51,272 bases of DNA from assembly GCA_016871255.1 (NCBI GenBank), contig VFZH01000008.1, positions 1-51,272 on the forward strand, read 5' to 3'. Positions within the stretch are counted from its first letter, which is position 1, and every line of letters begins with the position of its first letter. Under the pieces are notes generated by a model. That model made no database searches and was not told the origin of the DNA. It saw only the letters and a program-made list of their open reading frames with translations. Made by a program: the position numbers and the translations under genes. The stretch is from Acidimicrobiia bacterium (GTDB taxonomy: Bacteria > Acidobacteriota > Vicinamibacteria > Vicinamibacterales > UBA2999). Below, one piece after another: positions 138 to 1,028 of this stretch.

Positions 138-1028
138 GTGCACCCGGTCGCGTTCCGAAACCCGTTCGATCGGACGTCTCAGCCGCTGCACACCGTCGCC
201 CTCATCCCCGCCCGCTTTCAGTCCACACGATTTCCCGGCAAGCCGCTGGCCGACCTCGCCGGCCGGCCGATGATCGAACACGTTTATCGCCGGACGGCGG
301 CTGCGCGCTCGGTGGACGCCGTCGCCGTCGCGACCGACGATCCCCGCATCGTCGCGGCCGTGGAAGCCTTCGGGGGCGTCGCCCGGCTGACGGCGGCCCG
401 TCACCGCAGCGGCACCGACCGCATCGCGGAAGTGGCGCGCGACCTGGCCTGCGAGGTCGTCGTCAACGTCCAGGGGGACGAGCCGCTGATCGACCCGGAC
501 GAGATCGACCGCGTGGTGGAACCGTTCGCAGCCGACGCGTCGGTGCTGATGACCACGCTGCGGACGCCGCTGACGGCAGCGGCCGACTACCAGAGCCCGC
601 ACGTGGTGAAGGTCGTGGTCGATCGCGACGGAGACGCGCTGTACTTCTCGAGGGCGCCCATCCCGTCCATCGGGCCGGCTGCCTTCGACGCTGCTCAGGC
701 CGGGAGAGCCGGCCGCCACAGCGGAGTGCCCACGGTCGCAGCGCCCGGACCGGCTGAAGCCGGCCCGCACAAGGGAGAGGTGGCGGCCGGAGGCGGACCG
801 ATGTATCGGCACATCGGGGTGTACGCGTACCGCCGGACGTTCCTTCTCGAGCTGACACGCCTCCCCCCGTCTCCCCTCGAGCTCGCGGAATCCCTCGAGC
901 AGCTCCGCGCGCTCGAGCACGGCTTCCGCATCCGCACCGTCGAAACCCCCAACCCGTCCGTCGGCGTGGACACGCCGGCGGACCTGGAGCGCGTCCGGCG
1001 TCTGCTGGCCGTTGCCGCGCGCGTGTGA
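138..1028 (+). CDS. kdsB: 3-deoxy-manno-octulosonate cytidylyltransferase (CMP-Kdo synthetase) with a repeat-encoded insert
   Basis: KdsB activates Kdo with CTP to CMP-Kdo for lipid A-core assembly in the cytoplasm. The nucleotidyltransferase signature [15 protein letters not shown], then [29 protein letters not shown] and [11 protein letters not shown] follow the family order. Family homology starts near base 183. I chose GTG 138, which has AGGA 7-8 nt upstream; GTG 123 and ATG 78 are also in frame. About 25 residues between FDAAQ and MYRHIG have no counterpart in the roughly 250-residue family and are encoded by GC palindromes, so they look like a tolerated repeat insertion. The next gene, pyrG, starts 10 bases downstream and makes the CTP used here. 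Confidence 0.93.
698..790 (+). repeat. Palindromic REP-like repeat inserted in frame in kdsB
   Basis: Two GC palindromes sit close together: GGCCGG-GAGAG-CCGGCC at 698-714 and CCGGCT-GA-AGCCGG at 750-763. The stretch is translated as part of KdsB (…[11 protein letters not shown]…) exactly where KdsB homologues have a short loop. From memory, similar Pro/Ala/Gly 'AGPAEAGPH' peptides interrupt many proteins of high-GC Acidobacteriota. I saw no second copy in this window, so the repeat-family claim rests on recollection; the boundaries are approximate. Confidence 0.55.

Follow-up and report, generated by a model that had tools for sequence, protein, structure and literature searches.

Probable REP-type palindromes in frame within the variable loop of a bacterial KdsB

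The window, which is the whole 51,272-nucleotide stretch of DNA analysed, opens with kdsB (138..1028, + strand), and a loop of the encoded enzyme is lengthened by an inserted stretch of about 40 codons (671..790). Very probably, this insert consists of two, perhaps three, mobile palindromes of REP type, which entered the main length-variable loop of KdsB and were kept in frame there. Three sets of evidence carry this reading: a copy number far above control, a one-sided GTRG tag and short loops in most relatives; the contrast within genus g9 between the empty loop of G020 and the REPs of G021 and G022; and a RAYT in G021 together with the same REP in that genome's kdsB, in-frame copies lying between protein domains, and the pirin of G036. 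Several points count against it: the lack of a cognate RAYT in the own genome, the spacers, the fold energy, the tag on no more than 29 of 72 copies of one element, and the GTGC in its kdsB copy.

The inserted stretch and its repeat family

The profile matches and conserved motifs identify the product as CMP-Kdo synthetase (3-deoxy-manno-octulosonate cytidylyltransferase), an enzyme of the lipopolysaccharide pathway. CTP_transf_3 (Pfam PF02348) matches at 2e-51; TIGR00466 scores 205.5 bits (cut-off 155.2), matched in two stretches; NF003952 matches above its cut-off; and solved KdsB chains match by sequence. The predicted fold aligns with 1gqc_A over 241 residues (Z 34.4, rmsd 1.5). The start codon is uncertain, the conserved part running from about 189, and a pyrG-like ORF, called from sequence alone, lies directly downstream. 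These profile matches bear out the initial annotation, which described the ORF, reading frame and motifs as intact. It was also right to place extra residues, encoded by GC palindromes, in the loop immediately N-terminal to RHIGVYAYR. Its estimate of about 25 extra residues was low: the excess over the profile of relatives is 35, judged from the alignment of 29 relatives and a profile of 110 KdsB. Its start at 698 cuts through an element that begins at 671. The edges of the insert are approximate, being set by where repeat sequence starts and stops.

Two elements were delimited, both with the tag end on the - strand and hence in the same orientation. Element B (671..719, - strand), a long REP defined by core matches and aligned copies, has outer arms GGCCGGCT/AGCCGGCC, and its GTGG tag occupies 719-716 (- strand). 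Its layout, GTGG-GGGCCGGCTTTCCTGGCCTGAGC...GAAGGCAGCCGGCCC, is that of the arms of element A enclosing a second palindrome-like stretch. Element A (747..770, - strand), a short REP hairpin recognised from its genome copies, has its core at 747-766, with one mismatch to the consensus, and a degenerate tag, GTGC, at 770-767. A possible third element is represented by a decayed head (GTGGCGGCCGG; 780..790, + strand), the exact reverse complement of 709-719: inverted repeat I4 pairs the two at 11 of 11 bases, a length so short that the third head is uncertain. The insert is composite, with spacers (720-746 and 771-779) that match no element, and its structure does not speak for a single clean insertion. 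With the stretch enclosed in its loop (GGCCTGAGCGAAGYCGAAGGC), B looks like a repeat within a repeat, at 671-719 and in about 20 genome copies.

Both elements recur throughout the 3.9-Mb genome. A search with the insert returned 44 matches, a total that counts the query locus itself and a few overlapping hits; it comes from scoring 40 of 146 first-look candidates. Element A has 27 exact copies and 45 with one mismatch, 72 in all with the kdsB copy included, spread over many of the 243 contigs. At up to three mismatches it is found 114 times forward and 108 times reverse, many places being counted on both strands, since the pattern is almost self-complementary; a reversed-pattern control gives 6 and 6. 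The B core at the same threshold has 11 forward and 10 reverse matches (21, the kdsB one included; control 2 and 1). Two of the 23 aligned B copies, at window position 34429 and at L122, were judged to be chance resemblances, each with three mismatches. The sequence is therefore not unique in its genome; uniqueness was one of the two outcomes that the initial annotation had named as refuting it.

Element A is a short, dispersed, high-copy palindrome, as REPs (about 20-40 bp) are; B, at about 49 bp, is longer than typical. The one-end GTAG/GTGG tag of REPs is also present: GTRG stands at the 5' foot of the A hairpin in 29 of 72 copies and on the other side in 4 of 72, and in kdsB the B copy carries GTGG and the A copy GTGC. 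Most copies examined look extragenic. A home-made, rough codon-usage test of the two flanks within a spanning ORF found no two-flank coding signal for 113 of the 125 distinct copies examined at up to three mismatches (92 of 102 A, 21 of 23 B). The initial annotation had proposed a protein-invading REP-like element. The REP family stands; invasion of proteins is a minority event. These data support a REP family of the ordinary sort, copies of which now and then end up in permissive loops.

Might the loop instead be natively variable and GC-rich, having drifted to palindrome-like sequence with no insertion at all? Its length does vary in many KdsB (the 42 of 44 insertion cases given below), and the stretch folds no better than chance: the 121 nucleotides at 680-800 have a z-score of -0.29, and 70 of 200 shuffled versions equalled or exceeded them in stability. 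Fold energy was accordingly dropped as support, and the evidence is that of repetition and shared sequence. Drift is very improbable nonetheless, given near-identical sequences dozens of times in the genome and a B-type element in the pirin of another genus. An assembly or binning artefact at a repeat is scarcely credible. The genome is a draft in 243 contigs, and short-read assemblies fail at repeats; against this, the sequences on either side form a single kdsB joined in frame, reads are usually longer than these repeats, and analogues occur in other assemblies.

In the AlphaFold2 model of KdsB, 207 of 279 residues have pLDDT of at least 90, and values below 50 are confined to residues 181-183 and 187-201. 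The part derived from B (about 162-178) includes a predicted helix at 163-173, with block-mean pLDDT of 78 and 62. The later half of the insert thus lies in a low-confidence stretch; part of the insert is predicted to be disordered, the B-derived part not clearly so.

Copies in other proteins and the RAYT link

Ten A copies scored coding-positive on both sides. Five of these were set aside: L160 and L144:487 have two mismatches and perhaps chance codons, and the ORFs at L091, L092 and L067 look spurious. The five retained, kdsB included, look in frame by inspection and lie in linkers or loops. Domain limits place the other four: between the barrel and TSCPD domains of NrdJ (C148:818); between the lipoyl and E3-binding domains of a 2-oxoacid dehydrogenase E2 (C44:22207, an exact copy); between OppC_N and BPD_transp_1 of an OppC-type permease (C92:8473); and before the domain of a VWA protein (C6:11174). 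In a family relative, the pirin of G036 (L277, G036:C108:2662-2772) contains a B-type element in the same frame as in the window KdsB, followed by a decayed A-like stretch. Elsewhere in the own genome, peptides of the GPAEAGP or GFSRP type occupy linkers in other proteins. Together with the pirin peptide, they bear out, for relatives, the statement of the initial annotation that other Acidobacteriota proteins contain related Pro/Ala-rich peptides.

TnpA_REP proteins (RAYTs) are thought to mobilise REPs, and can cleave and rejoin REP sequences (accessible text of PMC6006769). A RAYT is encoded in the relative G021: a 196-codon open frame on C114 matches REP_Tyr_transpos (NF047646) at 102.6 bits (cut-off 80). 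Three GTGG-tagged GGCCGGCTTTAGCCGGCC copies lie at one end of this frame; its other end has two more, inverted relative to the first three. The same REP is present in the G021 KdsB loop as a head-to-head inverted pair with core GGGCCGGCTTTAGCCGGCCC; by sequence, it is a variant of the window REP.

A cognate RAYT for A and B was not found in the own genome. The sole Y1 transposase found there, on C9, scores 79.1 bits, just below the NF047646 cut-off of 80. This gene (L031, G000:C9:21831-22169) has GGGGTCTGACCC-type palindromes, which are unrelated to A and B, on either side, and was rejected as the mobiliser on account of those flanks. No obvious correlation between presence of the transposase and presence of REPs is reported (accessible text of PMC3733652), so a RAYT in the same genome is not required of a REP family.

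The following model accommodates these observations. RAYT-type transposition in an ancestor would have delivered the copies. Insertion sites are many, and the majority of those examined are intergenic. Element A is stop-free in five of six frames by direct reading, so that a copy within a gene would persist chiefly where its length is a multiple of three and the site is permissive. Because kdsB is an essential gene, only frame-keeping insertions would survive there. The inserted peptide would then be a tolerated flexible loop with no function of its own.

Comparison with known elements

The window elements resemble GTAG/GTGG-tagged REPs and REPINs in form, as short GC palindromes tagged with GTRG on one side; in being dispersed, for the most part between genes; in occurring as singletons and inverted pairs; and in having a variant that flanks a RAYT in G021. 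Some copies lie inside ORFs, as reported for REPs elsewhere, where dimers or groups encode 20-30 residues (accessible text of PMC3733652). They differ in that no cognate RAYT was found in the own genome and in the second palindrome-like stretch in the loop of B, and the section of PMC3733652 on REPs in ORFs does not name KdsB. According to the same section, recB of two Xanthomonas species carries different REPs at about one site. KdsB is alike in that the REP at a given position of the gene varies from species to species; unlike recB, its loop holds related variants in one class as well as other palindromes in genomes titled Nitrospirae or Nitrospinota. Frame-keeping REP insertions are also described in tnpA_REP genes, with the suggestion that loops tolerate them (accessible text of PMC6006769).

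Rickettsia palindromic elements (RPEs), compared here by description only, are likewise palindromes translated in frame inside unrelated enzymes, and are reviewed as units of about 150 bp (available portion of PMC10969869). The window elements differ from them: their units measure about 24 and 49 bp, bear GTRG tags and lie for the most part outside genes. RPE-4 and RPE-6 are themselves treated as CGTC-tagged REPs (available portion of PMC3733652).

In-frame selfish DNA in enzymes is thus known from Rickettsia and from several REP-rich genomes, and with in-frame REPs and Rickettsia elements already published, the kind of insert is not new. What is new is that a single enzyme loop has captured repeats more than once. 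The literature searched, with subscription papers and supplements outside its scope, yielded no report of KdsB as a repeated REP target, and none of the present case among work on KdsB palindromic insertions or REPs in Acidobacteria. The present case ties an in-frame insert to a RAYT-type REP family in what are probably Acidobacteriota, a placement based on the initial annotation and on named KdsB records among the best matches.

The KdsB loop across genomes

The stretch from YFSRAPIP to HIGVY spans 48 residues in the window KdsB. Among 42 family relatives searched, it could be read in 29 KdsB genes, where it measures 3-28 residues and at most 18 in 24 of the 29. The five longer loops have 20 (L040), 20 (L045), 21 (L044), 25 (L033) and 28 (L039) residues, and two of the five, those of G022 and G021, contain REPs. 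The window's insert is shared by none of the 29; conservation in all relatives, the other outcome named in the initial annotation, is thus not what is seen. The window's own genus is absent from the 43 genomes searched, so the empty site is known from other genera.

These relatives bear on the possibility that the REP has been retained for a role at the RNA or DNA level (mRNA stability, kdsB-pyrG attenuation, protein binding), with the peptide as a by-product. Action of REPs on mRNA has been proposed in general (accessible text of PMC3733652), and the hairpins do form on paper. The relatives keep kdsB without the insert, and the copy sits mid-gene, which makes such a role very improbable.

Insertions of at least six residues relative to the family profile were sought in 110 KdsB (the window, the 29 family members and 80 others). 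Of the 44 cases, 42 map to the YFSR-HIG loop, one to a second site and one (L186) to a third. Judging from this alignment, the loop tolerates length change of any origin, palindromes being one source.

Repeats were recognised in the loop in several other genomes. Within genus g9, the loop of G020 is 13 residues long and free of REPs, and that of G022 contains a variant other than the one in G021, TCCGGCTTCAGCCGGA (C10:1998-2013), which is among the 43 forward matches (42 in reverse) counted in its genome (controls 0 and 1). In G123, from another family of the same order, the loop contains GCCCGGCTTGAGCCGGGC. At up to two mismatches this sequence is matched 18 times forward and 20 times in reverse (controls 1 and 2), and only in kdsB is the match exact. 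The loops of G021, G022, G123 and the window carry variants of one REP type (CCGGCTT-AGCCGG), which places related variants in four genomes, three genera and one class.

Two further cases come from 80 KdsB loci of named genomes (the best 80 of 589; loops parsed in 54). The loop of L186 (titled Nitrospinota) contains a C/G-rich palindrome matched 42 times in that genome, a count that includes itself and two-strand overlaps (about 33 other places) and may be inflated by low complexity. That of L168 (titled Nitrospirae) contains a repeat with 19 matches, itself and overlaps included (about 12 other places).

Repetition in the own genome was positive in six of six loops tested, all picked for looking repeat-like; six of 118 is not an unbiased rate, since 20 (L322-L341) of the 50 loci L292-L341 that entered the hairpin count were chosen mostly for a long-looking KdsB match. 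In that count, over 118 genes, hairpins number 19 in loops (2.45 per kb) and 68 elsewhere (0.85 per kb), a count that includes one 112-residue 'loop' (L325) produced by a parsing error and some hairpins (L330, L043) that look like GC-rich chance.

Repeated capture could mean that the inserted peptide gained a function in KdsB, such as regulation, partner binding or stability. Genome-repeated palindromes in the same loop of six KdsB genes would fit, as would the position of the loop between two conserved segments, YFSR and HIG. Such a gain deserves little credence: the peptides differ in sequence from case to case, disorder is predicted for part of the insert, and the loop varies in length without recognised repeats too.

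The balance tips slightly toward a broader proposal, in which the YFSR-HIG loop is a cross-phylum landing site where mobile palindromes of different families have been taken up in frame on many independent occasions. Independence is judged from differing sequences and from repeat-free relatives. If true, KdsB records repeat DNA becoming protein sequence, perhaps feeding loop evolution. One loop of an essential enzyme holds different repeats across several genomes, and the empty loop, the fresh inverted pair and the decayed copy together offer a comparative system for how far mobile DNA supplies protein segments.

Two minor observations concern other loops. L186 has a second in-frame insert in kdsB (PPFAKGGEGGF), at another loop, which resembles the repeat peptide of its main loop. 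In L037, L034 and L040 (genomes G035, G017 and G037), the DNA of the kdsB loop resembles decayed REPs; forward counts of the TCCGGCTTCAGCCGGA-type REP are 11 in G035 (control 0), 12 in G017 (control 1) and 164 in G037 (control 0).
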